Shown here: positions 9,362-32,250 of the stretch, in pieces
Numbering within the stretch: position 1 is the stretch's first letter
How the letters are laid out: each line of letters starts with the position of its first letter
Source of the DNA: an uncultured Lachnospiraceae bacterium
GTDB lineage: Bacteria; Bacillota; Clostridia; Lachnospirales; Lachnospiraceae
Reading direction: 5' to 3'
Length of the DNA stretch: 56,555 nucleotides
Assembly (NCBI GenBank): GCA_900314255.1
Contig: OMUP01000141.1
Location: forward strand, 1-56,555
Position numbers and translations under genes: made by a program
The notes under the pieces: model-generated
Told to the model about the DNA's origin: nothing
Databases searched by the model: none
The model's input: only the letters and a program-made list of their open reading frames with translations

Positions 9362-9388
9362 GGGGCTGCTGTTGCAGCCCCGTTTTTT
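9362..9388 (+). terminator. Intrinsic terminator of the 38-residue protein gene
   Basis: GGGGCTGC (9362-9369), loop TGTT, GCAGCCCC (9374-9381), then G and six T. It ends exactly at the stop codon of the convergent SGNH gene; there is no T-run on the minus strand. Confidence 0.9.
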
Positions 9389-10151
9389 ACTTGTATATAA
9401 CTTTCAGAATCTCCTCTGCCAGAATTCCGGCGATAATATCAGCTCCTTCATCTGACGGGTGCAATCCATCATATGTCATGCCGATAGCCTGCTCCGGATA
9501 TGGGTATTCATCCTTATCCGGGTCATACGGAACGCCGATATAATCCGGGTATGCGAGATCCGTTTCTTTTCCATTCACACGCTTTCTCTGGAACTTTACG
9601 GCATTTGCCACCGTAAAGCCTGAACGGTCGTGCAGATTGATCGGATACACTCTCTCACCGTGCACACAGGAAAAAATCGCCCCTGCCACGTCAGACAGCT
9701 TCTGCCCCGCCTCCGGAGCATAACTTCCATGATCGATGTGATGATGGTCCAGAATATATATGAAATCGCTTCTTTCTACCGGATTCATAACGATTACAGG
9801 TGAAGTGCTCGTCTTACGGATGTTTCGGATTATGCAGGCCAGATTTCCCACAATCGTACCAGGCCGCTGCCCGTCAAAATCCTCTTTTGTCCCGCAGGGT
9901 GTTTTAAACGAGAACCAGTCGTTGGTTCCGAGAAGAATCGTGTAAAAATCAGCGGAAGGAAATGCCGCATCCAGAAAATTTTCCGTCGCCGCGCCATTGA
10001 TCCCCCGGTTGATTACATGTACTGTTCCCAGTTCCGGCATTATTTTTTCAAGCGTGCGGCTGACATACCCCTTGTGAAGCCGGTATCCTGTCTCGTCCAG
10101 ATGATCATTCAGATAAGTAAACGAATCACCGATTGCACACCAGATTTTCAT
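9387..10151 (-). CDS. SGNH/GDSL-family esterase
   Basis: 254 residues. Block I is AIGDSFTYLND at the N-terminus (nucleophile Ser10). A GTNDW segment (block III) lies near residue 75, and the C-terminal DGLHPSDEGA carries the catalytic Asp and His. No signal peptide is present. It is the last gene of the ABC transporter/GH105 operon, so removal of acetyl groups from imported oligosaccharides is a reasonable inference; thioesterase or lipase activity cannot be excluded. AAGGAG lies nine bases before the ATG and is located inside the end of the preceding 34-residue frame. Confidence 0.85.
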   Translation of the reverse strand: MKIWCAIGDSFTYLNDHLDETGYRLHKGYVSRTLEKIMPELGTVHVINRGINGAATENFLDAAFPSADFYTILLGTNDWFSFKTPCGTKEDFDGQRPGTIVGNLACIIRNIRKTSTSPVIVMNPVERSDFIYILDHHHIDHGSYAPEAGQKLSDVAGAIFSCVHGERVYPINLHDRSGFTVANAVKFQRKRVNGKETDLAYPDYIGVPYDPDKDEYPYPEQAIGMTYDGLHPSDEGADIIAGILAEEILKVIYK

Positions 10152-10157
10152 TTTGAA

Positions 10158-10262
10158 TCAACTCCTTAACAGCTTCTTATATTCGGACGGATCCTGCCGG
10201 TAAACTTCTTGAATGCGATACTGAAGTACTGAGAATTGTTCCCATAACCAGTTCATATTCAT
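10158..10262 (-). CDS. Possible 34-residue protein coupled to GH105 and the SGNH gene
   Basis: An open frame MNMNWLWEQFSVLQYRIQEV... of 34 codons fills the whole gap between the GH105 and SGNH genes. Its ATG overlaps the GH105 stop as ATGA, and its TGA lies within the ribosome binding region of the SGNH gene (AAGGAGTTGA). The peptide is Trp/Gln/Tyr-rich, could form an amphipathic helix, and ends in a basic KKLLRS. There is no Shine-Dalgarno sequence of its own, so translation would rely on coupling. I do not recognise it; it might be a leader for the SGNH gene, a remnant, or chance. Confidence 0.4.
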   Translation of the reverse strand: MNMNWLWEQFSVLQYRIQEVYRQDPSEYKKLLRS

Positions 10263-11296
10263 GCTTTGAGAACCGCAGCAAAAAATGCCAGTACAAGTCC
10301 CTGGCCCCAGCCCTGGATCCATCTTTTTGTCACGTTCCGATACCCCTGCGCATCCCGCATGACAGCGGTTCCGCCGGATACATTTTCTACGGTGCCGTCC
10401 TCTGCGACATTTGCAAGGACTCCTTCGATAGCTTTGTTTACGTACTTGTAATGAAGCGGATTGCCTGCGATCGTCATCGCCGCTGCGATGCCGGCAGAGG
10501 CGGAAACTTCCTCATAACTCTCCGGATCATCAATGATTGTGCGCCAGAGTCCGTTTTCCGTCTGATAATTTTTCAGCGCTGAAAGCTGCAGATCGAGGCT
10601 GCCATTGATATCCATGCACTCCGGATACAGATACCAGCCCGGAAGATCCGGCTTCACATGCGACATGGTATAAGCTGCCCACGCGTTTGCGCGTCCCCAG
10701 TGAATGCCGGACATATGACTTTTCTTCACATTCGAATACCCGTGAAAGAACAGTCCGTTTTTATCCTGCAGATACAGAATATGCCAGTACCATTGTTTCA
10801 GCGCGTCAGAAATCAGCGTCTCATCCTTTCTCTCAATCCCGACCCGCAGCAGCATGTAGGCAGCCATGAACAGCGTGTCCGCCCAGCACTGCTCGGGAAA
10901 ATCGTCGCGATCCGAGACCGTGTGCTGCAGAACGCCGTCGCCAAACCGCAGAGCCTTGTTCTCAAGATAATCAATCTGGGCATTCAGATATTTCTGATAT
11001 TTTTCGTCACCTGTCGCCTTATATAAATCAAGCAGGCAGTGTCCCATTGCGCAGGTATTGACATTGAGACCCGGGACGCCCAGATCGATCAGTTCGTCGA
11101 CTCTCTCCTGCACCATCTTCCGGTATTCATCCCGCCCGGTGGCTTCCGCCGCACGGCAGATGCCGTAATATGCCACGCCGCACGGCCACTCCCACGTCAT
11201 GTCCATCTGCATGGTACGCTTCACAATCCGGTCCACGGCGTCAAGAAGTTCGTCTCTTGAATATGACAGTCCGGTTTCAGCCTTAGTTTCGCTCAT
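10259..11296 (-). CDS. Glycoside hydrolase family 105/88 (unsaturated uronyl hydrolase)
   Basis: 345 residues forming an alpha6/alpha6 barrel by family. The motif QCWADTLFMAAYML near residue 135 carries the Asp expected to catalyse hydration of the unsaturated uronic acid, and HWGRANAWAAYTMS near 205 is the second conserved block. GH105 enzymes (YteR type) remove the unsaturated uronic residue left by pectin lyases. No signal peptide is present, so the enzyme works on imported oligosaccharides brought in by the upstream ABC system. Start: of two adjacent ATG codons the second (11296) has the better spacing from GGGAGG. A terminator hairpin separates it from the permease gene, so it should be expressed by read-through. 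Confidence 0.88.
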   Translation of the reverse strand: MSETKAETGLSYSRDELLDAVDRIVKRTMQMDMTWEWPCGVAYYGICRAAEATGRDEYRKMVQERVDELIDLGVPGLNVNTCAMGHCLLDLYKATGDEKYQKYLNAQIDYLENKALRFGDGVLQHTVSDRDDFPEQCWADTLFMAAYMLLRVGIERKDETLISDALKQWYWHILYLQDKNGLFFHGYSNVKKSHMSGIHWGRANAWAAYTMSHVKPDLPGWYLYPECMDINGSLDLQLSALKNYQTENGLWRTIIDDPESYEEVSASAGIAAAMTIAGNPLHYKYVNKAIEGVLANVAEDGTVENVSGGTAVMRDAQGYRNVTKRWIQGWGQGLVLAFFAAVLKA

Positions 11297-11327
11297 CATT
11301 ACCTCCCGTTTCACAAGTAAATTTGTC

Positions 11328-11362
11328 AAAAAAAAGCTCCTGCCGGTACAGCTGGCAGGAGC
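11328..11362 (-). terminator. Intrinsic terminator between the MalG-type permease and GH105
   Basis: On the minus strand a 9-base stem (11354-11362 with 11336-11344), loop of nine, is followed by eight T. It would reduce transcription of GH105 and the SGNH gene relative to the transporter. Confidence 0.85.
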
Positions 11363-11382: not shown

Positions 11383-12228
11383 TCAGCCTTTCAGACCGGA
11401 TGTCGAGATACCTTCCACCAGATAGCGCTGGAATGTAAGGAACAGAACAACGGACGGAATCAGGGATACGCAGGCCATGGCGAACATAGCGCCGTAGTCG
11501 GACGATGTACCCGGGTCAGAGAACAGCTTCAGAGCCAGAGATACAGGGTACATAGCTGACTTGTTTACGTACATGAGGGCGGAAAGGAAGTCATCCCATC
11601 TCCACATGAACGAGAAAATCGTGCCCGTTACAAGTGCCGGTACCATCAGCGGAAGGATGATCCGGATGAAAATCTGCCAGTAGGAGCAGCCGTCGATTTT
11701 CGCTGCCTCGTCCAGGTCCTTCGGAATACCTCCGATGAAGTTGCTGAACAGGTAAACGAAGAATCCCTGAATTGCGAAGCAGTACGGTACGATAAGCGGA
11801 ATGTAGGAGTTAACCCATCCCAGCTGTTTGTACCACAGGTACTGCGGGATCATGAGAACCTGTGCCGGCAGCATCATGGAAAGGAGCATTGCTGTGAAGA
11901 GGATCTTCTTTCCCTTGAATTCAAATCTCGCAAAACCATATCCGACAAGAGACGAGGATACGATTGTACCGAGTGTCGCGCTCAGAGCGATGATCAGGGA
12001 GTTGCCGATGAAGGTTCCGAATCCTACGCCGCCGAAACCTTTCCAGCCGTTGATGTAGTTCTCAGTCGTCCACGTTGTTGGGATCAGCTGTCCTGCCGTC
12101 GCGAAAATGGTGTTGGTCGGCTTGAAGGAGCTGAACAGCATCCAGAGAAGCGGATAGATCATCACGATCGCGAAGGCAAAAATGAAAATATTTTTGATAA
12201 TAAATCCTGCTTTACTTCTCTTTTTCAT
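11383..12228 (-). CDS. Sugar ABC transporter permease, MalG type
   Basis: 281 residues with six predicted membrane helices. The cytoplasmic EAA loop is seen at EAAKIDGCSYWQIFIRIILP, the contact site for the ATPase. It is the second permease of a CUT1-type importer. The ATG at 12228 has GGAGG eight bases upstream and lies one base after the stop of the first permease; a start at 12246 would overlap it and is less likely. The window has no ATPase gene, so a shared MsmX/MsiK-like ATPase elsewhere is inferred. Confidence 0.93.
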   Translation of the reverse strand: MKKRSKAGFIIKNIFIFAFAIVMIYPLLWMLFSSFKPTNTIFATAGQLIPTTWTTENYINGWKGFGGVGFGTFIGNSLIIALSATLGTIVSSSLVGYGFARFEFKGKKILFTAMLLSMMLPAQVLMIPQYLWYKQLGWVNSYIPLIVPYCFAIQGFFVYLFSNFIGGIPKDLDEAAKIDGCSYWQIFIRIILPLMVPALVTGTIFSFMWRWDDFLSALMYVNKSAMYPVSLALKLFSDPGTSSDYGAMFAMACVSLIPSVVLFLTFQRYLVEGISTSGLKG

Positions 12229-12229
12229 T

Positions 12230-13156
12230 TTATAATCCTCCGTCATATACCCAGAACTTCTTGGTTGCGAACAGAACCGCGGTGACAGCCGAGATGATGA
12301 GAACCATTACCCAGGCCATTGCGGCGCCGTAACCGGTGTTGTAATAGGTGAAGGACTGATCATACATGTAAACGGTGTAGAACTCTGTCGAGTACATCGG
12401 CTTGCCCTGTGTGATGATGTAGCACTGTGTGAATGCAAGGAAGCCGTTGATCAGCTGCATAACCAGGTTGAAGAATATGGTCGGTGTGAGAAGCGGGAAT
12501 GTGATCTTCCAGAATCTCTTCCAGCCGTTTGCGCCGTCAACCATCGCCGCCTCATACAGAGACTGCGGGATCTGCTTCAGAGCAGACAGGAAAATCAGCA
12601 TCGAAGAGCCGAACTGCCAAACAGCGAGGATGATCAGAACCCAGATGGCGGTTCTTGTATCGCCGAGCCACGGGAAGTTGATTCCAAGGATCCGGTTGAT
12701 GGTTCCGTCGGTAGCCCACATGCGCTTCCAGAGAACGGATACGGCCACGGATCCGCCGATGATGGACGGCAGATAGTATGTCGCTCTGTAGAAGCCGGAA
12801 AGCTTGTTGTTCTCGAGAAGAAGCATCGCGACAAAAAGCGCGAAGATCAGTCTCAGCGGTGTGGAAACCAGGGCGAAGTAAAATGTTACGCCGATGGATT
12901 TCTGATAGATCGCGTCGCTGGCCATTTTTGCGAAGTTATCCCAGCCGATGAATACCGGCGGCTGCAGGATGTTGTACTGGCAGAAAGCGTAGTACAGCGA
13001 AATTGCCATCGGAACGACCATGAACATGAGGAAGCCGAACGTAAACGGCAGGGTGAAAATGTAGCCGGCCGTTTTCTCGTTATTGATCGGATTGCCGATC
13101 TTGCGCTTCTTGGCAGGCGCAGAGGCGGCAGTCTTCACAGGTTGCTTATTGCCCAT
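12230..13156 (-). CDS. Sugar ABC transporter permease, MalF type
   Basis: 308 residues. A Lys-rich cytoplasmic N-terminus is followed by six predicted membrane helices and the EAA loop YEAAMVDGANGWKRFWKITF. It is the first permease of the CUT1-type importer and precedes the MalG-type gene by one base. The ATG at 13156 has AAGGAG eight bases upstream; a codon 30 bases earlier lacks one. The gene has its own promoter (13188-13253) downstream of a terminator, so it can be transcribed separately from the binding protein. Confidence 0.93.
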   Translation of the reverse strand: MGNKQPVKTAASAPAKKRKIGNPINNEKTAGYIFTLPFTFGFLMFMVVPMAISLYYAFCQYNILQPPVFIGWDNFAKMASDAIYQKSIGVTFYFALVSTPLRLIFALFVAMLLLENNKLSGFYRATYYLPSIIGGSVAVSVLWKRMWATDGTINRILGINFPWLGDTRTAIWVLIILAVWQFGSSMLIFLSALKQIPQSLYEAAMVDGANGWKRFWKITFPLLTPTIFFNLVMQLINGFLAFTQCYIITQGKPMYSTEFYTVYMYDQSFTYYNTGYGAAMAWVMVLIISAVTAVLFATKKFWVYDGGL

Positions 13157-13187: not shown

Positions 13188-13253
13188 ATTATACGATCTT
13201 GTTTTGTTCATTATAACTCATAAAACCTACCCGTCGCTTCAAAATTTCCTACT
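13188..13253 (-). promoter_or_regulatory. Promoter of the permease genes with the shared upstream motif
   Basis: On the minus strand TATAAT (forward 13188-13193) has a weak -35. AGTAGGAAATTTT begins at 13253, exactly 60 bases upstream of the -10, the same distance as in the two binding-protein promoters. A second half, GGTAGG, follows 22 bases after the first. Confidence 0.6.
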
Positions 13254-13265
13254 TTTTCATAATAT

Positions 13266-13285
13266 TTTTACACACTTTTGTAAAA
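13266..13285. promoter_or_regulatory. Inverted repeat TTTTACA-N6-TGTAAAA
   Basis: Perfect 7-base arms (13266-13272 and 13279-13285) lie between the upstream terminator and the permease promoter motif. Operator function is possible but untested; the AT-rich context weakens the case. Confidence 0.35.
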
Positions 13286-13310
13286 TGTATCCAATTACCG
13301 CTGCTGCCGC

Positions 13311-13344
13311 AAAAACGGGACCGCAGGGTATCCCTGCAGTCCCG
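13311..13344 (-). terminator. Intrinsic terminator after binding protein 1
   Basis: On the minus strand CGGGACTGCAGGG pairs with CCCTGCGGTCCCG across a 3-base loop (one G-T pair), then five T. It separates the abundant binding protein from the permease genes. Confidence 0.9.
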
Positions 13345-13367
13345 CCTGTCAATTCCGGATTCCCGCA

Positions 13368-14753
13368 TCAGCTGCCAGCCTTGGCCGCCAGTGCTGCAGA
13401 GCCCTGAGTGATAAACTCCTCCGCTGCCTGCGAAGCGTCAATCTGTCCGTAGCAGAGCTCTTCCACTACGTTGTTCAGTGCCTTGCCGGCTTCCGCATAT
13501 CCGTCCGGATACGGCGGATTGATAACAGAGCAGTTCGGCTGAACAACATTATAGATGTAGTTGTAAATCTTCTGATCCGTCTCATCCAGCTGGCTCTTGA
13601 TCTTGTCGGCTACATCAGAATTGATCGGAACGCCCCGCTCGCCGAGAAGGATATCATTGCAGTCGGTGCTGTTGATCAGATAATTCAGGAATTTTACAGC
13701 TTCTTCCGGATTTTTTGTGCCTGATGTCACAGAGAAGAACTGACCCGGTTTAATGAAATCAGACTTCTTCGGATCCGGGCTCGGCCATGTGGTCATCTCC
13801 AGATCCATTCCCTCTTTTGCCAGCTTGTTCATCGCTGTGTACTGGTTGGACCACATCAGAGTGTTCCATGCCGATTTATCCGGTGACGTTCCTGCCACTA
13901 TCGGCGCCTGCTCGATGGAACCGATTGTGATGTCTGCGTAGACATCCGGTCCGAGCTCCCATCCTTCTTTGATTCCGTCCTCGTATACCTGGAAGTACTT
14001 CGTCAGCTGTTCTTTCGTGGCATTGAGCTTCCCGTCGCCAAAAAGGACAACGCCGTCCGATCTCAGCAGATAATTCATGGGTTCCTGAACAGTACCATAG
14101 GAAAGATCCGTCTTATATCCTGTCTTTTCATAAATCGTCTTTGCAGCCGTGACAAATTCATCAAGGGTCATATTATCCTTGATTGTAACTCCGGCTTCAT
14201 CAGTAATGGTCTTATTGTAAACCAGAGCCGGCGCATTCATGCCCGCGCATATAGCGATGACTTTGCCATCCACCGTGCCGGCTTCGAGCATATTCTTGTC
14301 CCACTTGGAAGCATCCAGGGTTCCGTTATCAATATACGGCTTCAGATCCAGAAGCTGACCGGATTTCGCATACTGGTTAATATACTGGTAGTCCTGCTGC
14401 ATGATGTCCGGTGCCTGCCCTCCGGCTGCAGCCGTTGCCATCTTCTGCCAGTAGTCATTCCACTCGGAAAACTGACCGTCGATGGTCACGCCCGGATTAT
14501 CTTTCTCATACGCTTCAATCGCATTCTGGGTGCGTTCATTTCTCGTCTGATTGCCCCACCAGGCAAAAACCATGCTGACATCGCCGGACGAACTGTTTCC
14601 GGAAGCTGCCGATGCTGCCGCAGTAGTTTTCTCCGCTGCTGCAGATGTCTTTGCCGCAGCACTTGTCTGGGTTCCTCCCGTACTGCCGCAGCCTGCAAGC
14701 ATTCCTACTCCCATCAGTGCAGCCATTGCGGCTGCTGCACCTCTTTTCGTCAT
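13368..14753 (-). CDS. Sugar ABC transporter solute-binding lipoprotein 1
   Basis: 461 residues. A type II signal peptide ends in the lipobox LAGC (Cys22), then a low-complexity Ala/Ser/Thr linker, then a periplasmic-binding-type fold (family 1) from about residue 58 with VFAWWGNQTRNERTQNAI and DIMQQDYQYINQYAKSGQ. It captures an oligosaccharide and delivers it to the permease pair. It is a close paralogue of the next upstream gene (more than half the positions identical by eye). GGAGG lies nine bases before the ATG. It has its own promoter and a terminator on each side, so it is mainly monocistronic. Confidence 0.93.
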   Translation of the reverse strand: MTKRGAAAAMAALMGVGMLAGCGSTGGTQTSAAAKTSAAAEKTTAAASAASGNSSSGDVSMVFAWWGNQTRNERTQNAIEAYEKDNPGVTIDGQFSEWNDYWQKMATAAAGGQAPDIMQQDYQYINQYAKSGQLLDLKPYIDNGTLDASKWDKNMLEAGTVDGKVIAICAGMNAPALVYNKTITDEAGVTIKDNMTLDEFVTAAKTIYEKTGYKTDLSYGTVQEPMNYLLRSDGVVLFGDGKLNATKEQLTKYFQVYEDGIKEGWELGPDVYADITIGSIEQAPIVAGTSPDKSAWNTLMWSNQYTAMNKLAKEGMDLEMTTWPSPDPKKSDFIKPGQFFSVTSGTKNPEEAVKFLNYLINSTDCNDILLGERGVPINSDVADKIKSQLDETDQKIYNYIYNVVQPNCSVINPPYPDGYAEAGKALNNVVEELCYGQIDASQAAEEFITQGSAALAAKAGS

Positions 14754-14791
14754 ATAAAAGCCTCCTCACGAACTAATATTGTATATTAGAT

Positions 14792-14857
14792 AGAATAGTC
14801 CGGCTTTCATTTCCTTACAAGGTGAAAAAACCGACTAATTTGGTCATATTGCCGACT
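14792..14857 (-). promoter_or_regulatory. Promoter of binding protein 1 with direct-repeat activator motif
   Basis: On the minus strand TTGTAA (forward 14815-14820) and TATTCT (14792-14797) are 17 bases apart. Upstream lie two exact AGTCGG direct repeats beginning at 14857 and 14836, 21 bases (two helix turns) apart; the first is 60 bases upstream of the -10. This is the usual layout for an AraC-type activator. Confidence 0.65.
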
Positions 14858-14919
14858 AAAAAGATTTCATCATAGCTATTTTATGCAATTTATCTTTTCA
14901 CATTCTCATACCAGGAAAG

Positions 14920-14978
14920 AAAGTCTGAATGCAGACTTTTATTTTCAATAAAAAGAGGAAGGACTGTACGTCCTTCCC
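14920..14978 (-). terminator. Terminator (and second hairpin) after binding protein 2
   Basis: On the minus strand GGAAGGAC (complement of 14970-14977) and GTCCTTCC (14957-14964) form a stem followed by CTTTTTATT-like T-rich bases. A second perfect hairpin, AAAGTCTG-N4-CAGACTTT (14920-14939), follows directly and may act as a back-up. Confidence 0.8.
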
Positions 14979-15007
14979 CTCTATCAGCTGTGAACCCCAG
15001 CCTTATG

Positions 15008-16402
15008 TTACTTGCTCGCTGCCGCCTTGGCCGCCAGAGCTGCCGTGCCCTGATCTACGAGATCCTGGCCTGCCTGTTCTGCTGTCTCCTGCCCGTAGCA
15101 TACTGCCTCGAGAATCGTGTTCAGAGCCTTGCCGGCTTCCGTGTATCCGTCCGGATACGGCGGGTTGATGTCGGAGCAGTTCTTCGCAACAACCTCATTG
15201 ACAAATGAGTAAGTCTTCTGATCGTTTTCAGAAAGCTGTGCCGATACCTTGTCAGCGATGTCGCTGTTCATCGGAATTCCGCGCTCACCGAGCAGGATGT
15301 TGTTTGCATCCTCGCTGTTGGTCAGCCAGTTGATGAATGCTGCAGCTGCCTTCGGATCCTTGGCGTTTGCCGATACAGAGAAGAACTGGCTCGGCTTCAG
15401 GAAATCCGACTTCTTCGGATCTGCACTCGGCCATGTGGTCATCTGCATATCCTGGCCTTCCTTGGCTGCCTTCGTGACAGCTACATACTGGTTGGACCAG
15501 CAGAATGTGCACCAGGACTGATTTTCCGGATTGTCGCCATATACAAGCGGATCCTGCTCAACCGATCCGACTGTAATCTCTGCGAATACGGTCGGGGAAA
15601 TCATCCAGCCGTCCTTCTCGCCGTCCTCGTAGATCTTGAAGTACTTCGCAAGATTCTCGGCCGTCGCGTCAACCTTTCCGGTGTTGAAAAGAATTGCGCC
15701 GTCCGCGCGGCACCAGTAGCTGAAGATCTCCTGTGCTGTTCCGTACTGGATGTTTGTCTTGTAGCCGGTCGTCTCGTAAATCTTCTTGGATGCCTCGATG
15801 AACTCATCGATGGACATATTGTCCTTGATGGTTACGCCGGCCTTGTCTGTGATTGTCTTGTCATATACAAGAGCCGGTGCGTTGATGCCGGCGCAGACAG
15901 CTACCAGCTTGCCGTCCATCGTGCCCGCATTGATCATGTTCTGATTCCACTTGGACGTATCGATCGTCCCGTCCTTTGTGAACTCAGTCAGATCATACAG
16001 AAGCCCGGTGTTCATGTACTGATTCAAATACTGGTAGTCCATCTGGATGATATCCGGAAGAGCATTGCCGGCCGAATTGGTCGCAAGCTTCTGCCAGTAG
16101 TCATTCCACTCCGAGAACTGTCCCTCGATCTTGACACCCGGATTCTGCTCCTCGTACTTTGTGATCGCGTTGGATGTTCTCTCGTTTCTGGTCTGGTTGC
16201 CCCACCAGGCGAATACCATGCTTGCATCGCCGGATGAGCTCCCGGAAGCCGCTGTTGTCGTCGCGCCTGCAGCAGCTGTTGTCGTGCTTCCTGCCGCACC
16301 TGTTGTTGTAGTGCCTGACGCACTGCTTCCGCAGCCGGCAAGCAGCCCGGCGCTCATGGCAGCTGCCAGTGCTGCAGCTGCACTTCTCTTTAATCTGCTC
16401 AT
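15008..16402 (-). CDS. Sugar ABC transporter solute-binding lipoprotein 2
   Basis: 464 residues. Lipoprotein signal peptide with lipobox LAGC (Cys near residue 23), a Ser/Thr/Gly/Ala linker, then a family 1 binding domain with VFAWWGNQTRNERTSNAI and DIIQMDYQYLNQYMNTGL. It is a tandem paralogue of binding protein 1 and has no permease genes of its own, so the two probably feed the same channel with different ligand preference or expression. Start: the ATG at 16402 has GGAGGGG six bases upstream; the frame continues 273 bases further upstream but that part looks non-coding. Its promoter carries the shared motif. Confidence 0.93.
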   Translation of the reverse strand: MSRLKRSAAAALAAAMSAGLLAGCGSSASGTTTTGAAGSTTTAAAGATTTAASGSSSGDASMVFAWWGNQTRNERTSNAITKYEEQNPGVKIEGQFSEWNDYWQKLATNSAGNALPDIIQMDYQYLNQYMNTGLLYDLTEFTKDGTIDTSKWNQNMINAGTMDGKLVAVCAGINAPALVYDKTITDKAGVTIKDNMSIDEFIEASKKIYETTGYKTNIQYGTAQEIFSYWCRADGAILFNTGKVDATAENLAKYFKIYEDGEKDGWMISPTVFAEITVGSVEQDPLVYGDNPENQSWCTFCWSNQYVAVTKAAKEGQDMQMTTWPSADPKKSDFLKPSQFFSVSANAKDPKAAAAFINWLTNSEDANNILLGERGIPMNSDIADKVSAQLSENDQKTYSFVNEVVAKNCSDINPPYPDGYTEAGKALNTILEAVCYGQETAEQAGQDLVDQGTAALAAKAAASK

Positions 16403-16456
16403 GTTACCCCTCCCCGAGATAGAAAAGCATATTACAATAACTTGAATACTGGATAT

Positions 16457-16522
16457 ATTATATATGTCAGTCTTTCCGGAGAGGTATACAAAAAAATGAC
16501 CTGATTGAACAAATTGCCTACT
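16457..16522 (-). promoter_or_regulatory. Promoter of binding protein 2 with the shared upstream motif
   Basis: On the minus strand a perfect TATAAT (forward 16457-16462) is paired with a poor -35 (ACCTCT), suggesting dependence on an activator. AGTAGGCAATTTG begins at 16522, 60 bases upstream of the -10, and GGTCAT begins 21 bases later, followed by a T-tract, as at the binding protein 1 promoter. Confidence 0.62.
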
Positions 16523-16577: not shown

Positions 16578-16994
16578 CTATCTTCTTGCGGTGTGGAGGC
16601 TCCCGATGAAATAAAGCACCAGCAGGAGAAAATCAGCACTGATGAGCAGCGAATAACCGGCCCGCATGCTGGCAATCACAAGCAGAATGATGAGTGCCGC
16701 GGAAATCACAGTGGCCAGAAGGCGCCTGTTCGTGAGACCGGCCACTCCCAGCAGCAGATAGATCACGCCGAACACGACGGTAATTGCCGCCAGCATCATG
16801 TCCTGCCCGCCGAATGAACGGATGGCGCTTGTGGTCAGCAGCCGGTCAAGATAGATGTCCATCACCCCGCGGATATCCGCTGCCGCTGCGCTGTGGGATG
16901 AAACGGCTGTGCAGATGCCGGCCGCCAGCAGGCACACCCCCAGAAGCAGGGAGAATATGGATGTCCACCTCAGAAGCAGATTTGTTTTTCGCAT
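16578..16994 (-). CDS. Small four-helix membrane protein, unknown function
   Basis: 138 residues with four predicted membrane segments (about residues 10-30, 65-85, 90-110 and 115-133) and a short external loop after the first. No recognised motif. The ATG at 16994 has GAGGGG eight bases upstream; an in-frame ATG 48 bases earlier has poorer spacing. It is divergent from the uracil-type permease and upstream of binding protein 2 on the same strand. A TATAAT on the minus strand (forward 17074-17079) may be its promoter. Confidence 0.6.
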   Translation of the reverse strand: MRKTNLLLRWTSIFSLLLGVCLLAAGICTAVSSHSAAAADIRGVMDIYLDRLLTTSAIRSFGGQDMMLAAITVVFGVIYLLLGVAGLTNRRLLATVISAALIILLVIASMRAGYSLLISADFLLLVLYFIGSLHTARR

Positions 16995-17087
16995 ACAGGA
17001 ATCCCCTCTTAATTTGGAATACAGCAGCAAGTCGTCTTCCATCCTTACTCACGCTCCGCCGCTGTTGTCCTTTATTATAACCGCCCC

Positions 17088-17129
17088 GTCCGAAAAGAAA
17101 AACCCTTACGGGTCCGGACTTTCTTTTTT
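17088..17129 (+). promoter_or_regulatory. Hairpin with T-run upstream of the permease gene
   Basis: GTCCG (17088-17092) pairs with CGGAC (17115-17119), enclosing ACCC-TTAC-GGGT, followed by TTTCTTTTTT. It could be an attenuator for the downstream permease, but a TATACT (17143-17148) after it may be the real promoter, and no PyrR-type binding loop was recognised. Confidence 0.35.
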
Positions 17130-17197
17130 CGCTTCATTGCTCTATACTTTTACAAGTTTGAGTTGAAAAATCATACGCACAATGAGGAGGGAAACGT

Positions 17198-18595
17198 ATG
17201 AGCAAAGCCAAAGTGCGGATCGGAGAAGAACCGATCTATGACGCGCGGGAGCTGGGGACCGGAAGGATCCTGATTCTCGCTTTTCAGCACCTGTTCGCCA
17301 TGTTCGGAGCCACGGTGCTTGTGCCGGTTCTGACCGGTATCTCCGTGAGTGACACGCTGCTGTTTGCCGGTATCGGAACACTTCTGTTCCATCTGCTCTC
17401 AAAAGGAAAGGTTCCGGCATTTCTCGGATCTTCCTTTGCATTTCTTGCCGGCTATGCCGCCATTGCGCCAAACGGAGAGCCGGAACTGCTGCCATATGCC
17501 TGCTTCGGCGTAGCGTGCTCCGGACTTCTCTACCTGCTGCTGGCGGCGTTGTTCAAGCTTTTTACCGCCAACAAAGTCATGCGCTATTTCCCGCCGATTG
17601 TGACCGGACCGATCATTATTGCCATCGGCCTGAACCTGTCGCAGTCTGCCATCGACAACTGTTCCACCCACTGGTGGATTGCTCTCACCGCCATTGTCAT
17701 CATTGTAGTCTGCAATATCTGGGGCATCGGCATGATCAAGGTCGTTCCCGTAATTCTGGGTGTCATCGGCTCTTACATCGCCGCTGCCATCGCCGGCGTC
17801 ATTGACTTCACGCCGGTCCGTGAGGCCAGCTGGTTCGGCAGTCCCATCGACTACAGCCGCACCGTGTTTTCAATTTTCACCAGCGGTCATGTGAACACGG
17901 GCCTGCTGGTGACATCGGCCATCACCATTGTCCCCATCGCCTTCGCCACGATGATGGAGCATATCGGTGATATCTCCGCCATCTCTTCCACCGTGGGAAA
18001 AAATTTCATCAAGGACCCGGGCCTTCACAGAACTCTTACAGGCGACGGTCTTGCGACGATCATTGCCTCCCTGTTCGGCGCACCGGCCAACACAACCTAC
18101 GGAGAAAACACCGGTGTTCTGACACTCACAAAGGTGTATGATCCGATGATCATCCGCATCACGGCCGTCCTCGCGATCCTGCTGTCCTTCTGCCCGAAAT
18201 TCGCCGCCATCATCGAAGTCATGCCGGCCGCCACGATGGGCGGCATCTCTCTGGTGCTCTACGGTATGATTTCCGCCGTCGGCGTGCGCAACATCGTCGA
18301 GACCCGCGTGGACTTCAGCAAAAGCCGCAATGTCATCATCGCGGCCCTGATTCTCGTACTTTCCATCGGCATCAACTATTCGGCAGCCGGTGCCATCAGC
18401 TTTGTCATCGGCGGCGTGACCATCAGTTTCTCAGGCCTGGCCGTAGGATCTCTTGTCGGCATTATTCTGAATGCAGTTCTGCCTGGCAAAGACTACCGTT
18501 TCGACAACGACGAGCCCAATCCAACCGGCGTTGACTTCGAGGCTGCCCAGGGCGAAACCCTGAGTGAAATCAAAGAAGCAGAAAAACAGGACTAA
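17198..18595 (+). CDS. Uracil/nucleobase permease, NCS2 (UraA-like) family
   Basis: 465 residues with about 12-14 membrane segments. Family signatures are QHLFAMFGATVLVPVLTG near residue 28 and the substrate-site region with MMEHIGDISAISSTVGKNF and GLATIIASLFGAPANTTYGE near 265-305. It most likely imports uracil by proton symport; xanthine or other bases cannot be excluded. A strong GAGGAGGG lies just before the ATG. The two-component genes follow 23 bases after the stop, an unexpected partner. carAB and upp elsewhere in the window are other pyrimidine genes. Confidence 0.9.
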   Translation: MSKAKVRIGEEPIYDARELGTGRILILAFQHLFAMFGATVLVPVLTGISVSDTLLFAGIGTLLFHLLSKGKVPAFLGSSFAFLAGYAAIAPNGEPELLPYACFGVACSGLLYLLLAALFKLFTANKVMRYFPPIVTGPIIIAIGLNLSQSAIDNCSTHWWIALTAIVIIVVCNIWGIGMIKVVPVILGVIGSYIAAAIAGVIDFTPVREASWFGSPIDYSRTVFSIFTSGHVNTGLLVTSAITIVPIAFATMMEHIGDISAISSTVGKNFIKDPGLHRTLTGDGLATIIASLFGAPANTTYGENTGVLTLTKVYDPMIIRITAVLAILLSFCPKFAAIIEVMPAATMGGISLVLYGMISAVGVRNIVETRVDFSKSRNVIIAALILVLSIGINYSAAGAISFVIGGVTISFSGLAVGSLVGIILNAVLPGKDYRFDNDEPNPTGVDFEAAQGETLSEIKEAEKQD

Positions 18596-18618
18596 TCCTT
18601 TGCACAAGTGAGGTGGAC

Positions 18619-20448
18619 ATGAAAGATTCAGGTAAAACCAGCAGACTGCACCGCATGTTTTCAAATCTGCCGCTGCGGAGAAAATTTCTGTCCATCCTCC
18701 TTCTGTATTCTCTGGTGGTCATCCTTCTCTTCTCGTTCTGCTACCGGCTCCTGGCATCGGCCTACGACAAGGTTTCGTACCGTTCCTTTGCCGCCAACCT
18801 GAATTTCACCGGGTCCTCCATTCACGACAAGCTTCAGCAGACCGAAAGTCTTTCCTATACGATTCTCGCCTCTTCTCAGGTGCAGGAAGCCCTGAGTGAA
18901 CTGAACGATGAAGAAGAGCCTACACCGCGCACAATTGCGTCGGTGTACAACACACTGTCGTCATATCTTCTCACGATGTATGAGACAAACCGGGGCTCCA
19001 TATCCTACATTTCCATCCGAAGCGGCAGCAATGAGTACACCACAAGTCCGTACACAAAGAATATTGATCTGTCCATTCTGACCTCGGCGCAGGCGCAGGC
19101 CAGCGCAGCCCGGGGGGCTGTCTGCTGGGTGATGGGCTCCGAAGATTCGGGATATCTGTATCTCGTCCGGGAAATCCGCAGAATCGAAGGAATGTCTCTC
19201 GATGATCTGGGCTGTGTCATCATTGCACTGGACGTGTCTGATCTTCTTGCGGAATCCGACATCATGATCCGGACATTCGGCCAGTACAATACAGCGCTGA
19301 ATTATAACGGCGCTGTCCGTGTCAACCTGTCGGATGAAACAGCTGTGCTGCCGGATGATATCCGGCACATGGAGCCGGGCAGCTATGCGCGGCTTCGCGC
19401 AGGCGGCCACGATTACTTTGCCGCCTGCTCCTATGTTCCCGGGTACAGCGATTTCACCATCTCGGCTTTCATCCCCTACGATGTTATCACCAGCAATCTG
19501 TACCGCACTGTAATCCTGATTTTCGTCGTTATTCTGATCGGTGTGCTGCTTCTGCTGCAGATCACCGACCGGCTGATCGATTCGATACTCGTTCATATCG
19601 ACCGCCTTGTGGACAAGATTCAGGCTTTTTCCCGTCAGAAGCCTGCCCCCTCCGGCATGCCCGACTACAGCTTCCGGCAGGATGAAATCGGCGTTCTGCA
19701 CCGGCAGTTTGACGATATGACGCATCAGATCACGACACTCATCGATCAGAATTACAAAAACGAAATCCTGTACCGGGAAGCGCAGATCCGCTCGCTGGAA
19801 TCCCAGATCAATCCGCATTTCCTGTACAACACGCTCGACACGATCTACTGGAAAGCCCAGCTTTCCGGAAGCGAGGAAATTTCGCTGATGGCGGAATCCC
19901 TGGGCAAGATGCTGCGCGCCACGCTCTCTTCCCACAAGTCCCTGATTCCGCTCAAAGAAGAACTGTCCCTTATTCACTCCTACATCACCATCCAGGAAAT
20001 CCGCTACAACAACCGGCTTGTGTTCACATTTGCCGTGGATGATGAAACAAAAGAGGCACTGATTCCGACGCTTTGTCTTCAGCCTCTCGTGGAAAATGCG
20101 ATAAAATATGGTCTGGAGGAAATGATCGATACCTGTCACATCACCGTGCAGGCGCATCACGAAGGCGATGACCTTGTCTGCCTCGTGAAAAATGACGGTT
20201 CGGCCTTTCAGGAAAATCTGCTTGAGCACCTCCGCCAGAGCCAGAAAAATCTTCCGGAAAATGCGCACGGAAAACACGGATTCGGCATCGGGCTTCTCAA
20301 TATTGAAACCCGTATCCATCTGCTGTTCGGAGATTCCTACGGCCTGCGTCTTTACAATGAGAATGGATTTGCCGTGGCCGAAATCCGGATTCCATTCCAG
20401 ACTTCAACGGGTGACACAAATGAAAATTCCAGAACAGGAGTTGAGTAA
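18619..20448 (+). CDS. YesM-like sensor histidine kinase
   Basis: 609 residues. The first membrane helix is at about 23-45, an extracellular sensor region runs to about 290, the second helix is at about 293-315, and HAMP-like and coiled segments follow. The His_kinase domain has QINPHFLYNTLDTIYWK with the phospho-acceptor His400. The ATPase domain has LQPLVENAIKYGL and the Gly-rich HGFGIGLLNIETR. This is the layout of YesM-type sugar-sensing kinases that work with AraC-type response regulators. Start: the ATG at 18619 has GAGG just upstream; an in-frame GTG is at 18613. The response regulator gene begins right after the stop codon. Confidence 0.92.
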   Translation: MKDSGKTSRLHRMFSNLPLRRKFLSILLLYSLVVILLFSFCYRLLASAYDKVSYRSFAANLNFTGSSIHDKLQQTESLSYTILASSQVQEALSELNDEEEPTPRTIASVYNTLSSYLLTMYETNRGSISYISIRSGSNEYTTSPYTKNIDLSILTSAQAQASAARGAVCWVMGSEDSGYLYLVREIRRIEGMSLDDLGCVIIALDVSDLLAESDIMIRTFGQYNTALNYNGAVRVNLSDETAVLPDDIRHMEPGSYARLRAGGHDYFAACSYVPGYSDFTISAFIPYDVITSNLYRTVILIFVVILIGVLLLLQITDRLIDSILVHIDRLVDKIQAFSRQKPAPSGMPDYSFRQDEIGVLHRQFDDMTHQITTLIDQNYKNEILYREAQIRSLESQINPHFLYNTLDTIYWKAQLSGSEEISLMAESLGKMLRATLSSHKSLIPLKEELSLIHSYITIQEIRYNNRLVFTFAVDDETKEALIPTLCLQPLVENAIKYGLEEMIDTCHITVQAHHEGDDLVCLVKNDGSAFQENLLEHLRQSQKNLPENAHGKHGFGIGLLNIETRIHLLFGDSYGLRLYNENGFAVAEIRIPFQTSTGDTNENSRTGVE

Positions 20449-21963
20449 ATGCAGAAAATCATGATCGTCGACGACGAACCGATTATTCTGGAAGGTATTT
20501 CAAAAATGATTGACTGGGAATCCATCGGTGCCAAGCTTGCCGGCACCTACAGCAACGGTCTGGATGCCATGACTGCCATCACGGACGACCCTCCGGATGT
20601 ATGCATCGCGGACATCCGGATGCCGGGCATGAGCGGGCTGGACCTGATCCGCAACTGCAGCGAGCTTCATCTGGATACGCAGTTCATCATTCTGTCCGGA
20701 TACAGTGAATTTGAATACGCCCAGCAGAGCATGAAATACGGCGTCCGCCACTATCTGCTCAAGCCCTGCAGCAAGGACGACATTGCGGCAGCCACGGCCG
20801 AAGCGCTTCAGGATGCGCGCAAAGCCAAGGAAAAGCACCCGGTCGACAACGATGTTTTCCTGCTTCTGGACACCGCCAGACAGGGTGTTATGGCTTCCAT
20901 CATCAATGAGGCAATGTTCAAGGATCAGCCGATTGATGATCTCATCCGGCAGTACGAGGCGTATTTTGACTTTAAGCACGGCGCCTTCCGGCTGTTCTAT
21001 ATCTACTATCTGCCGCCGGAAAAGCTGAATGCCTTCCTCGCGGAGCTGAAGGAAGAATACACGCGGAGGATGCCGCAGGTCACTCTCTACTCGGTTTACG
21101 TCCGAAACACGTATATGCTCATGTATTCCGACCCGAAAATGGAGAGCGGATACGTGACCAATTTTCTGGAGCGCGTGAAGGGCGATTTCGGGCCGACCAC
21201 GCTGGAGTGGGAAGACTCTCTGATGGAAAACGGCCGTGAACTTCTCACGGTTCTGATCAGCAAGATCCGCCGCTACGGAAGTTTCTACTACATCAACAAT
21301 TTCCAGCCGTTCATGGAGATCAATTACACCGGCATCTCACGACAGCTTGAAAGTCTGTATGAAAAGGCGGAACACGGCAGCGAGGAGGACGCACAAAATC
21401 TGATCACGGCTTTCGGTGCCATTCAGGACCCTGTGCTCTACCGCCAGACGGCCGTGAGTTTCCTGCTGAAAATCACAAACGACACTGCCGAGAGCTATGC
21501 CATGATCGAATGGCTGAAGGGGATTGAAACGGAAAGTTCCGTCTCAGTGCTTCACAGCAAGGTGAGCGGAAAAATCCTTGAGATCCTCGCGGCGCGCCAC
21601 AAAAAGATGGGAGTCGACGAAAGCCTGACGGACCGCATCTGCGATTACGTCAACCGCAACATAGACAATCCGCTTCTCACCCTCAAGTACATCTGTGAAC
21701 AATACCTGTACATGAACGTGGACTATGTATCCCGGAAATTTCACCATGAAATGGGGCAGAAATTCTCCGCCTATCTGACCGATGTGCGGATCAGCCGCGC
21801 ACAGCAGATCATCGGGAGCAACCCGAACGTCCTGATCGCCGACGTTGCCGAAAAAGTCGGCTTTGGAAACAATCCGCAGTACTTCTCGCAGCTGTTCCGC
21901 AAGAAAACCGGAATCACGCCGAGTATGTACACCGAGCAGGTCAAAGCACAGAAAAAGAAATAA
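20449..21963 (+). CDS. YesN-like response regulator with AraC-type DNA-binding domain
   Basis: 504 residues. An N-terminal receiver domain (IMIVDDEPIILEG, acidic pocket; ADIRMPGMSGLDL with phospho-acceptor Asp55; LLKPCSKDD with the conserved Lys) is followed by a long middle region and two C-terminal helix-turn-helix units (about residues 400-500), with SRKFHHEMGQKFSAYLTDVR and VAEKVGFGNNPQYFSQLFRK. It is co-translated with the kinase; AGGAG overlaps the kinase end. It probably activates sugar-transport genes, and the three motif-bearing promoters of the adjacent minus-strand ABC system are the best candidate targets. Confidence 0.93.
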   Translation: MQKIMIVDDEPIILEGISKMIDWESIGAKLAGTYSNGLDAMTAITDDPPDVCIADIRMPGMSGLDLIRNCSELHLDTQFIILSGYSEFEYAQQSMKYGVRHYLLKPCSKDDIAAATAEALQDARKAKEKHPVDNDVFLLLDTARQGVMASIINEAMFKDQPIDDLIRQYEAYFDFKHGAFRLFYIYYLPPEKLNAFLAELKEEYTRRMPQVTLYSVYVRNTYMLMYSDPKMESGYVTNFLERVKGDFGPTTLEWEDSLMENGRELLTVLISKIRRYGSFYYINNFQPFMEINYTGISRQLESLYEKAEHGSEEDAQNLITAFGAIQDPVLYRQTAVSFLLKITNDTAESYAMIEWLKGIETESSVSVLHSKVSGKILEILAARHKKMGVDESLTDRICDYVNRNIDNPLLTLKYICEQYLYMNVDYVSRKFHHEMGQKFSAYLTDVRISRAQQIIGSNPNVLIADVAEKVGFGNNPQYFSQLFRKKTGITPSMYTEQVKAQKKK

Positions 21964-27961: not shown

Positions 27962-30900
27962 TCACATGATGACCAGGTACGGATCCTCCTTCTTGAGATC
28001 ACTAATCATCGCCCGGCTCTCTTCCTTCCGGCCAAGTCCGTACAGTCCCATGGCGATCAGTTTCCTGCAGTGGATCCGGTTTCTGGCGTCAAGATCATCG
28101 TCAAACACCTTCAGGTCCGGCAGCGACACGGCGAAGTAATCAACCGTCACATGATCAAAATAATGCTTTTCGCCGTAATCAACAAGTTTGTGGAAGCGTT
28201 TGTCAGCCTCGTCTTTCTCACCGAGCGCAAGAAACGCAAGTCCCTGATACAGAATCATATCCGAAGGCTGATCGTTGTAAAACATCACACCGGCCGGCTC
28301 CATGTCTCCGAGCAGCGCATTCCGGAAGCTCTTTTTCGCCTCTTCTTCTCTGCCCTGAAGCCGCTGTGCTTTCCCGAGCAGATACCAGATGTGGTTGTCC
28401 TTCTCGCCCTCAAGCCTGCCCTCGCCCAGATTTTCCGGGAGTTCAAGCGCCTGATCAAGCAATTCTTCCGCTCTCTTTGCATCCTGCTTATTAAGCGCCT
28501 CCCTTGCCATTCCGACAAGAGACGCCATATACTGCGCAGACACCTTTCCTTCTCCGCCCTCCCACGGGTGAAATTTCCGCGCCTTGATCCGGCCCAGTGC
28601 TTCCTCGTACCGTCCGAGCTGATTCAGAAGACTGCAGGATTCCAGATACAGATCGTCTCTCTTGTCCGCCGTCGCCCGGTTCTCCTCAAGAAACGCAAGC
28701 CTCTCGCGCACCGGCCGTTTCAGGCGCGCGTACAGCTGATCGAGCTCCATCATCACCCGCGCATCACCTCTGTCCATGGCAAATGCTTTCTCAAGCGCCT
28801 CTCTTGCCTTCTCCTTCTCACCTTTTACATTGAAATATCCGAGTGCAAGATTGCGCCATACCGTCGGGAAGTCCGAAAGAAGCCGGCTGCTCTCTTCCCA
28901 GAGAGCAATTGCCTCATCCCGGCGCTCCCGCGCGTACAGCATACAGCCGAGATAATAGCGCGCCATACCGTCTGTTTTATCCGCATCCGCCGCCTGCTGC
29001 AGAACAATCAGATCCTGCGCCCGGTTCGGGAACACATAGGAAGAATCAGCTGCCGCTGCCTTTTTCCTGTATTCTGACGCCTGTTTTTCCTCACCCTGCC
29101 GCGAAGCGATTCCGGCAAGGCGATACAGCACCAGCGGTTTGTCCGGCGCCAGAAGAAGCACCTCCCGCGCGCGGGAAGTAAGTCCGGCCACCGCAAAAAG
29201 GTCCGCCGTCTCCAGATACGTGCTTTCCCGGCTGCCTGCCAGCGTCTTGAATTTCTTCATGTCACCGCTGATTCTGCAGAGCTCAAAGCGGGATGCCCAG
29301 GCAAACGGATCTTTCCTAAGCGTCTCATTTAGCAGTGCCTCTGCCTCTTCGCGCTGCCCGAGCTCGTTTAAAATCACGGCTTTCAGTGCCAGCCCCTTCA
29401 GATTGGCGCTGTTTTTCACAAGAGAATCTTCGATGTGCTCAAGCGCCGTCTCAAAGTCTTTTTTTCGGCAGTCGATGAGTGCCAGATAAAAGAAGCCGAT
29501 GTCCTGCTGCGCGCCGCTCCAGATACTCTTGTAAAAATCATCATACGCCTCGCGGATCCGTCCGAGATAAAGCTCAGCCAGTCCTCTGTCGGCCATGCAG
29601 CGGCTGTCATGCGGGTTCGGGTTGTGCATGGTGCTCCGCCTGACCGCCGCGTCAAAATACGCGAGGCTCTTTTCAAATTCGCCCCGGCGGACAAGAAGTT
29701 CGCCGTACGCCGTGTTGCAGCGGATGTCGCCCGGGTCTCTTCTTAACGCCTCAAGGTAGAACGGATCCGGCTTCCAGTGTGCATGACGGTACTGCTCGAG
29801 ATGTCTGCCCGTGAGATACAGTTCCTCCGTCGTCGGTGTGTCCTTCGCAAGCGCGGGCGATTTCATCGGGTCCGGAATTTTCTCAATTCTATCCTCCGGG
29901 ATGCGCCACGAAATCAGTTCCCGCCCGGAGGCATCCTGTACCGCAATGACCAGATCCTGCTTCCTGCCGTCAAACGGCACTTCACGCACAAGAGGATTCT
30001 CCGGCGAAAACGCCCCGCTCTCCCGGAAAAGTTCCCGCCCAGAGGCAGAATCCTTAAGCGTCACAGAAAGCATCGGGAACTTACACACGGCGTACATTCC
30101 GAGAAGTACCTTTCCTTTGTCTGCGGACAGGCTCACGGCAAGGTCCTTCGTGGCATTTTTCACGTATCCGATCTTTTTGTACGGCAGAAAGTACTGGGTG
30201 AAATGTTTCTCCTCAAACGGTTCCAGCCAGGTGAAATCCGGCTGATTGTCCGTGAAGACGCCGGTCATCAGTTCGATGTACGGACCATTGTGGTCGGTCA
30301 GGTTGCGGTCCCACGCCTCGCCGAAGCTGCCGCAGCCCCAGGTCCACTGCTTCTTGCCGGGGGAAATATGGTGATCGGCGACATGCAGGATTCCAGCCTG
30401 TTTTCCGTAATCATACCCGCCCACGAAGTCATATTCGGAGTGCGCGCACATATAGCTTGTCGGAACCGGAATGTTCTTATAGCGCGAGATATCCACGCCG
30501 GCTCCGTAGTCATGTTTGTAATACACCCCCGTGGCAATCGGAAAACGGCTGACATCGCGCTTGCCGTGGTCGAAAACGGCATGAACATCCGGCGGAAAGA
30601 CCGACTGCGTGTTGTCATTGACGGCGACAGCCGGATTTGCCCACCAGAGAAAGGTCTGCGGCAGCGGTGTCCCGTTGTACAGTTTTCCCTGGATCCGGAT
30701 GGCCGCCCGTCCCGGCTGCACACTGATGCGCGTCTCACCTTTCGTGCCATACATCTGATCCACTTCCGAAAGGATCACTGTCTTCCAGCCATCCTCTTCC
30801 TCGCGGATACAGAAATCTACCGGACTGTATGTCGTCGGGCGGTGGTGCTGCGGCCAGTTGAACTCGATGCCGCCGCTGATCCACGGCCCCAGAAGCCCCA

Positions 30901-31222
30901 CGAGCGCCGGTTTTATCACTTCATTATAGTAGACAAAATCATATCCGTTGGTCTTGTCATATGCGCGCTGAATGCGGCCGCCCAGAGCCGGCAGAACGGT
31001 GACGCGGATGTATTCATTTTCCAGGATGACAGCCGTGTAGTCCACATCCTGTTTTGTGTCATATATTTTCTCGATGATGGGCAGGGGATATACCTTCCCG
31101 CTGCTGCCCTGATACGTCCGGTTGTCAAAGAACATGGGATTTTTGTCAGGGCTTCCGACGCCATACGTCGGAATCGTGACCTTTGTGATCCGCACCTGTG
31201 CTTTTCCTTTGAAATCGTCCAT
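27962..31222 (-). CDS. DUF5107 plus TPR protein, probably carbohydrate-related
   Basis: 1086 residues, no signal peptide. The N-terminal part (about 1-330) matches the DUF5107 type, with VTVLPALGGRIQRAYDKTNG, WISGGIEFNWPQHHRP and HVADHHISPGKKQWTWG, a beta-rich region resembling galactose-mutarotase-like folds. From about residue 460 the protein is helical and built of TPR-like repeats (for example CNTAYGELLVRRGEFEKSLA and YYLGCMLYARERRDEAIALW). Its promoter carries a near-perfect copy of the element found in front of the divergent GH2 gene, so both belong to one AraC-controlled unit. Catalysis is not established; glycoside or sugar-epimer processing is inference. Confidence 0.8.
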   Translation of the reverse strand: MDDFKGKAQVRITKVTIPTYGVGSPDKNPMFFDNRTYQGSSGKVYPLPIIEKIYDTKQDVDYTAVILENEYIRVTVLPALGGRIQRAYDKTNGYDFVYYNEVIKPALVGLLGPWISGGIEFNWPQHHRPTTYSPVDFCIREEEDGWKTVILSEVDQMYGTKGETRISVQPGRAAIRIQGKLYNGTPLPQTFLWWANPAVAVNDNTQSVFPPDVHAVFDHGKRDVSRFPIATGVYYKHDYGAGVDISRYKNIPVPTSYMCAHSEYDFVGGYDYGKQAGILHVADHHISPGKKQWTWGCGSFGEAWDRNLTDHNGPYIELMTGVFTDNQPDFTWLEPFEEKHFTQYFLPYKKIGYVKNATKDLAVSLSADKGKVLLGMYAVCKFPMLSVTLKDSASGRELFRESGAFSPENPLVREVPFDGRKQDLVIAVQDASGRELISWRIPEDRIEKIPDPMKSPALAKDTPTTEELYLTGRHLEQYRHAHWKPDPFYLEALRRDPGDIRCNTAYGELLVRRGEFEKSLAYFDAAVRRSTMHNPNPHDSRCMADRGLAELYLGRIREAYDDFYKSIWSGAQQDIGFFYLALIDCRKKDFETALEHIEDSLVKNSANLKGLALKAVILNELGQREEAEALLNETLRKDPFAWASRFELCRISGDMKKFKTLAGSRESTYLETADLFAVAGLTSRAREVLLLAPDKPLVLYRLAGIASRQGEEKQASEYRKKAAAADSSYVFPNRAQDLIVLQQAADADKTDGMARYYLGCMLYARERRDEAIALWEESSRLLSDFPTVWRNLALGYFNVKGEKEKAREALEKAFAMDRGDARVMMELDQLYARLKRPVRERLAFLEENRATADKRDDLYLESCSLLNQLGRYEEALGRIKARKFHPWEGGEGKVSAQYMASLVGMAREALNKQDAKRAEELLDQALELPENLGEGRLEGEKDNHIWYLLGKAQRLQGREEEAKKSFRNALLGDMEPAGVMFYNDQPSDMILYQGLAFLALGEKDEADKRFHKLVDYGEKHYFDHVTVDYFAVSLPDLKVFDDDLDARNRIHCRKLIAMGLYGLGRKEESRAMISDLKKEDPYLVIM

Positions 31223-31314: not shown

Positions 31315-31319
31315 ATTTC

Positions 31320-32213: not shown

Positions 32214-32250
32214 AATCGCCTTCCTGTCATCTTTTATTTCTTTACAGGGT

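Follow-up and report, generated by a model that had tools for sequence, protein, structure and literature searches.

Three minus-strand promoters in a 56,555-nucleotide (nt) contig from an uncultured Lachnospiraceae bacterium (OMUP01000141.1, assembly GCA_900314255.1; called the window below, and contig C126 of its own genome, G000) carry paired direct half-sites at a fixed distance from their -10 hexamers. They precede two solute-binding protein genes and a permease unit of an ABC transporter cluster. Sequence comparison indicates that the sites are very probably operators of the AraC-type response regulator encoded at 20449-21963, activated via the kinase encoded at 18613-20448. The sites, their spacing, their conservation, their association with this type of regulator and the terminator hairpins between the units are all found at the level of DNA sequence. 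The promoter elements and the regulatory pair are listed here; L039 (an uncultured Lachnospiraceae metagenome-assembled genome, G008) and L040 (Lachnospira sp. UBA4285) are the close relatives used for footprinting.

16510-16522, minus strand: upstream half-site AGTAGGCAATTTG of the binding-protein-1 promoter, letters conserved in L039 and L040
16490-16501, minus strand: downstream half-site GGTCATTTTTTT (starting GGTCAT) of the binding-protein-1 promoter, 21 nt on from the first half
16457-16462, minus strand: -10 hexamer TATAAT of the binding-protein-1 promoter, 60 nt from the first half-site
14845-14857, minus strand: upstream half-site AGTCGGCAATATG of the binding-protein-2 promoter, rank 1 of 113,044 positions with a matrix from distant loci only
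14825-14836, minus strand: downstream half-site AGTCGGTTTTTT (starting AGTCGG) of the binding-protein-2 promoter, 21 nt on from the first half
14815-14820, minus strand: -35-like TTGTAA of the binding-protein-2 promoter, 17-nt spacer, read by eye
14792-14797, minus strand: -10 hexamer TATTCT of the binding-protein-2 promoter, 60 nt from the first half-site
13241-13253, minus strand: upstream half-site AGTAGGAAATTTT of the permease promoter, letters conserved in L039 and L040
13220-13231, minus strand: downstream half-site GGTAGGTTTTAT (starting GGTAGG) of the permease promoter, 22 nt on from the first half
13188-13193, minus strand: -10 hexamer TATAAT of the permease promoter, 60 nt from the first half-site
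18613-20448, plus strand: YesM-like sensor kinase (PF06580, PF02518), H-box residue 400
20449-21963, plus strand: YesN-like response regulator (receiver and AraC-type helix-turn-helix, HTH), the proposed binder

Layout of the three promoters

The original prediction held that each site begins 60 nt before a -10 hexamer, and for the sites starting at 16522, 14857 and 13253 this is exact to the base. The second halves lie where it had placed them, at +21 (16501), +21 (14836) and +22 (13231), each leading into a T-rich stretch. Two direct half-sites about two helical turns apart, upstream of and adjacent to the -35 position and at a fixed distance from a predicted -10, are what is expected of an operator for an AraC-type response regulator. 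A recognisable -35 was seen by eye only in the 14857 promoter (TTGTAA at 14820), while in the permease promoter a second TATAAT sits where the -35 would be; -35 quality is poor at 14820 and 13216, and the element is absent from the 16522 promoter. A plain sigma-70 consensus scan missed all three promoters, as expected because of these poor -35 elements, and the -10 calls therefore rest on position and conservation. A poor or absent -35 beside the downstream half is as expected of an activator that touches polymerase.

Operators could also serve repression, or a dual purpose, and AraC itself can repress. We regard this as extremely unlikely for the sites described here, given that they lie wholly upstream of the -10 and accompany poor -35 elements. 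Moreover, among five AraC-type two-component regulators of Caldicellulosiruptor bescii whose tandem sites lie upstream of mapped starts, three were read as activators (PMC8579813).

A degenerate 13-mer has three perfect copies in the window, with a -10-like hexamer at +60 in all three; when one mismatch is allowed there are four matches, against 0.63 expected (100 shuffles). Hexamers resembling a -10 (at least 4/6, with A2 and T6) occur at approximately 3.9% of positions in these intergenic regions, and the chance of three at one fixed offset is approximately 6e-5, a value that ignores the original prediction's choice of hexamers. Half-site letters alone, with one mismatch, were not enriched genome-wide (33 matches, against 48 for a reversed control pattern). 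A chance origin of the three-site match was rejected on the shuffle counts, the conservation and the fixed +60 offset.

Conservation and association with YesM/YesN pairs

In L039 and L040, islands of identity cover both half-sites and the -10, and the remaining spacers drift. One of the six copies in these relatives has diverged, namely the second-binding-protein promoter of L040, in which the first-half letters are changed and a 1-nt deletion leaves 59 nt. L039 is nearly identical to the window across promoter 2 (94%), so the comparison is weakly informative there. Taken over orthologous promoters, the motif and its 60-base spacing hold in close species and in the distant ones described below. 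G008 also has a second YesM/YesN and binding-protein/permease system (L039 14545-20547), between GH88 and esterase genes, whose promoter matches model R1 weakly (E 0.04) before a second binding protein. Additional binding-protein genes approximately 58-65% identical to the window's occur at L041, L042, L061, G000:C194 (a copy with one internal stop) and G000:C68; the surroundings of L041, L042 and L061 showed neither a permease nor a regulator, and gave no operator.

Fourteen distant loci (L043-L053, L056, L057 and L062, from Hungatella, Enterocloster, Lachnoclostridium, Blautia and others) have the regulator-kinase pair divergent from, and directly beside, the binding-protein gene. Expectation maximisation on their intergenic regions yielded AAGTCGGTTTTTTGAAAAAGGAAATCGGTTTTAT, that is, AGTCGGTTTTTT twice, 21 nt apart. 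In 12 of these loci the distance from the first half to the start of a -10 (at least 5/6) is 58-60 nt; the remaining two fit after a one-repeat shift, which leaves L056 with a 4/6 hexamer. A matrix from these loci, trained without the window, placed the window's sites at ranks 1, 4 and 15 among its 113,044 positions; the 22-nt spacing additionally lowers the score of the 13253 site. In the Blautia parvula locus (L062, ~9760-9850) the half-site appears by eye to be repeated approximately four times in a row, not twice.

The matrix was also applied to 31 binding-protein upstream regions outside the training set, 17 with a regulator or kinase detected nearby and 14 without. A site (shuffle p <=0.01) together with a -10 at 59-60 was present in 11/17 of the former and 0/14 of the latter. 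The 14 include L081, which is uninformative with only 28 nt upstream, and L089 and L090, later found to have a kinase farther off, with kinase and site ~1 kb upstream, ahead of an extra gene. A motif-free lag test, with the -10 as sole anchor, gave a self-match of 59% at lag 21 for 27 promoters (30 before removal of the near-duplicates L052, L091 and L047), while 500 shuffles gave a background of 0.278 (sd 0.022, maximum 0.354) and 10 promoters without a detected regulator gave 0.32. The blindly picked -10 was wrong for several of the rows kept (e.g., L044, L050, L056, L092, L094).

These data bear on whether the window's promoters are alike by common descent, through tandem duplication of promoter and gene, and not by functional constraint, which we consider very unlikely. 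Binding proteins 1 and 2 are paralogous (~63% identical), so two of the promoters may share one ancestor. However, the resemblance seen by eye is confined to the half-sites, T-tracts and -10, with dissimilar flanks; the gene behind the permease promoter is unrelated; and the distant loci retain the same elements amid different flanks.

Genome-scale scans linked the motif to the regulator. Model R1, which like model R2 contains the three sites, was run on 397 family genomes with stricter filters and 12 candidates scored per genome, so that counts are lower bounds. At E <=1e-4 there were at least 22 matches: six in G000 and G008, nine in the model or near-identical to its members, and seven new. 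All seven new matches lie beside a divergent YesM-like kinase. Five precede a binding protein without tblastn similarity to the window's, and the two of these proteins that were scanned both proved to be PF13407, which suggests the CUT2 type; the other two matches (L164 and L165, of one genus) have an extra gene between operator and binding-protein gene, which in L165 belongs to the uroporphyrinogen-decarboxylase (URO-D) family PF01208. New matches flank YesM-like kinases with differing binding proteins, and the motif therefore travels with the regulator. The possibility that it belongs to the binding-protein gene was rejected, as it recurs before an unlike binding-protein family. Twelve further R1 matches fell between E 1e-4 and 1e-3, and none of the ten examined had a convincing kinase adjacent; in this class, L155 has only a 24% kinase stretch at E 0.004, and L162, upstream of an esterase-like gene, looks plausible. 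A scan of the phylum gave four matches outside the own genome at E <=1e-4, two of which (L174 and L176, of one genus) lie between regulator and binding-protein gene, while L175 and L177 look like noise.

A close regulator is present in 3/11 genus genomes (G000, G001 and G008), and these three were searched with R1, R2 and the distant-only model R3. With all candidates scored, R2 found only the three sites above noise in each, and R1 agreed apart from the weak G008 match mentioned above. In the own genome there was no further operator above noise: R2 gave three matches up to E 10 with all candidates scored, and the fourth R1 match had an E of only 2.57 (150 of 314 candidates scored). G005, the only one of the other eight genus genomes in the family scan listing, had no match.

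Regulator helices, objections and proposed mechanism

The kinase and regulator have the features of a YesM/YesN pair: PF06580 with a HATPase domain and the H-box in the kinase, and a receiver with its aspartates and lysine joined to an AraC-type HTH in the regulator. Among regulators whose helix 3 reads MN[VTIA]DY[VIL]S, with GNNPQYFSQ or a near variant as their second recognition helix, CGG is found in register in 22/25 systems; the misses are L074 (real half-sites AGG), L051 (AGG) and L056. Regulators with SVGYLS, NVGYLS or SVRYLS have CGG in 0/6, keeping the layout but with different letters ahead of the T-tract. Three systems with helices outside these classes were set apart: L085 (MNEDYFG) has CGG and is an exception to the helix-letter rule, and L062 (MNVNYVS) and L078 (MNVSYVS) lack it. 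On these sequences the half-site letters correlate with the regulator's DNA-reading helix, as a correlation only; the comparison used the best of several -10 candidates per region, and its statistics ignore relatedness. A general rule for one branch of Firmicutes YesN-type regulators has, in our judgment, an even chance of holding: half-sites would be spaced by 21-22 nt and the first would start 58-60 nt ahead of the -10, with the T-tract constant and the leading letters set by helix 3 of the first HTH (MN[VTIA]DY[VIL]S giving CGG, SVGYLS-like giving ACG/CGC/CCA-like letters).

Several observations weigh against assigning the three sites to the neighbouring regulator. The regulator's receiver or HTH domains have 30 matches in the own genome, and cross-binding is possible. 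No site lies between the window's kinase and binding protein to serve the regulator genes, unlike in the relatives. Within the window, only the 14857 site stands out from background with the distant-only matrix: in Markov-shuffled windows the mean number of positions reaching the score of the 14857, 16522 and 13253 sites is 0.05, 0.7 and 5, respectively, and one shuffle maximum (17.2) exceeded the best window site (15.0). Model R3 was likewise weak, as its two best own-genome matches are at the locus with E of 0.15 and 0.37, one match is in the wrong register, and the 16522 site is missed (150 of 331 candidates scored). Furthermore, 6/17 of the regulator-adjacent unused loci have no strong matrix site (L075, L078, L085, L091, L093, L094).

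The many related regulators in the genome, together with the weak scores given to two of the three sites by distant-only models, could indicate that another, unlinked regulator, AraC-type or other, binds the sites and that the neighbouring kinase and regulator are bystanders. This is unlikely, in that the motif recurs beside divergent YesM-like kinases in varied transporter contexts, and a correlation links its letters to the neighbouring regulator's helix. The same two lines of evidence, the tracking of YesM/YesN pairs by the motif and the helix-letter correlation, support the original prediction that the YesN-like regulator drives both binding proteins and the permeases. As for the missing site, a plus-strand nucleobase permease (NCS2) and a 154-aa open reading frame (window 16578-18595) separate kinase from binding protein in the genus, and thereby the regulator genes have no shared intergenic operator.

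Under control by the regulator at 20449-21963, we infer binding, phosphorylation and activation as follows. The kinase at 18613-20448 would sense a ligand and phosphorylate the regulator, whose subunits would occupy the two half-sites, spaced by 21-22 nt, in head-to-tail orientation and from the same side of the helix. The subunit closer to the promoter core would lie immediately upstream of the -35 position and bring in RNA polymerase where the -35 is poor or absent. Because terminators separate the units and every unit has a site of its own, one signal would turn on three transcripts (binding-protein-1, binding-protein-2 and permease-GH88-esterase) with independently settable levels.

The gene cluster and related systems

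The transcribed units and the strong terminators between them are as follows.

15008-16402, minus strand: solute-binding protein 1 (PF01547)
14938-14990, minus strand: intrinsic terminator after binding protein 1 (folded stretch), -21.6 kcal/mol, z -4.3
13368-14753, minus strand: solute-binding protein 2 (PF01547), best solved relative YesO (5z6b, E 1.8e-67)
13306-13350, minus strand: intrinsic terminator after binding protein 2 (folded stretch), -29.6 kcal/mol, z -6.6
12230-13156, minus strand: ABC permease (PF00528)
11383-12246, minus strand: ABC permease (PF00528)
10259-11329, minus strand: GH88/GH105-type hydrolase (PF07470), best solved relatives GH105 proteins
9387-10151, minus strand: SGNH/GDSL esterase-like protein

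The first terminator has a counterpart of nearly the same sequence in L039 (z -4.7). The second has a weaker counterpart in L039 (z -2.3, with 4/200 shuffles as good) and one by sequence only in L040. In 11 distant relatives the gap before the permease is ~0-137 nt, with no copy of the site by eye and in some cases a hairpin. With terminators between the units here and no site before the permease there, the operon was thus apparently divided in this genus into pieces that each have a site copy, making one regulon of three separately tunable units. The original prediction of one regulon with separate promoters fits these terminators.

A YesO-like binding protein, CUT1-type permeases and a GH105-type hydrolase stand together in this one cluster, as in YesOPQ/GH105 loci. 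The best solved relatives are YesO and GH105 proteins, and the cluster therefore resembles the Bacillus subtilis rhamnogalacturonan uptake locus; the earlier label "YesN-like" is apt in view of the match between the binding protein and B. subtilis YesO, its best solved relative. Judged by family membership, the likely cargo and ligand are unsaturated rhamnogalacturonan (pectin) oligosaccharides. The B. subtilis gene order, which we take to be yesMNOPQR, shares with the window a YesM/YesN pair, a YesO-like binding protein, two permeases and a GH105-type hydrolase. Points of difference are the window's two binding proteins, its division into three units by terminators and the nucleobase permease that intervenes. 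In the literature searched, no published YesN site from B. subtilis was found for comparison.

Elsewhere in the window, a 39-nt sequence occurs twice, inverted and 95% alike (31279-31317 and 32256-32294). The copies are equally oriented upstream of the gene at 27962-31222 (minus strand) and of a GH2-like gene (labelled by our own reading) from ~32387 (plus strand). An AraC-type gene (31320-32336) lies between them, and they are probably its operators.

Tandem sites upstream of promoters have already been published for AraC-type two-component regulators of C. bescii (PMC8579813). As far as the available text goes, that system resembles the window in its tandem repeats, large spacers and local control of sugar transporters by AraC-domain response regulators, with inferred activation; the same text gives no CGGTTTT consensus, fixed 60-nt geometry or helix correlation (PMC8579813). 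In the accessible parts of reports on CuaDSR of Ruminiclostridium cellulolyticum, a YesN/AraC-type regulator likewise neighbours an ABC transporter, the kinase receives input from a second binding protein, and CuaR recognises the region upstream of cuaA; they hold no operator sequence to compare (PMC10384115, PMC5663094). The window has two binding-protein genes; in three-component sugar-sensing systems a binding protein delivers the signal to the kinase. For the pneumococcal regulators YesN and RR07, which like the window's are YesN-type, the text seen describes motifs unlike the window's sites, a conserved AATTC and, for RR07, CTWWWWWWAG; for YesN itself, thymine stretches and a possible direct repeat were suggested and no clear repeat motif was found (PMC11034029). 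XydS/XydR of Clostridium cellulolyticum also has an AraC-domain response regulator, and XydR was shown by electrophoretic mobility shift assay to bind upstream of its targets; the candidate shared sequences in the sections consulted (AAAAT repeats, GATTTATA and others) are unlike the window motif (PMC3572039).

Within the open-licence PMC literature searched, as far as its text was available, neither the motif, the regulon nor the helix-letter correlation is described, which does not establish their absence from print. The operator and regulon are a new instance of known tandem sites for AraC-type response regulators, and a fairly ordinary finding in gene control. YesM/YesN pairs are abundant in gut Firmicutes, but to our knowledge operators are known for few of them. 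Where an operator is conserved and its geometry rigid, sequence alone suffices to link a regulator to its target, and three natural promoters that differ in half-site letters provide test cases for activation by AraC-type response regulators. If true, the helix rule could predict operators and targets of many uncharacterised sugar-sensing systems from the regulator sequence.

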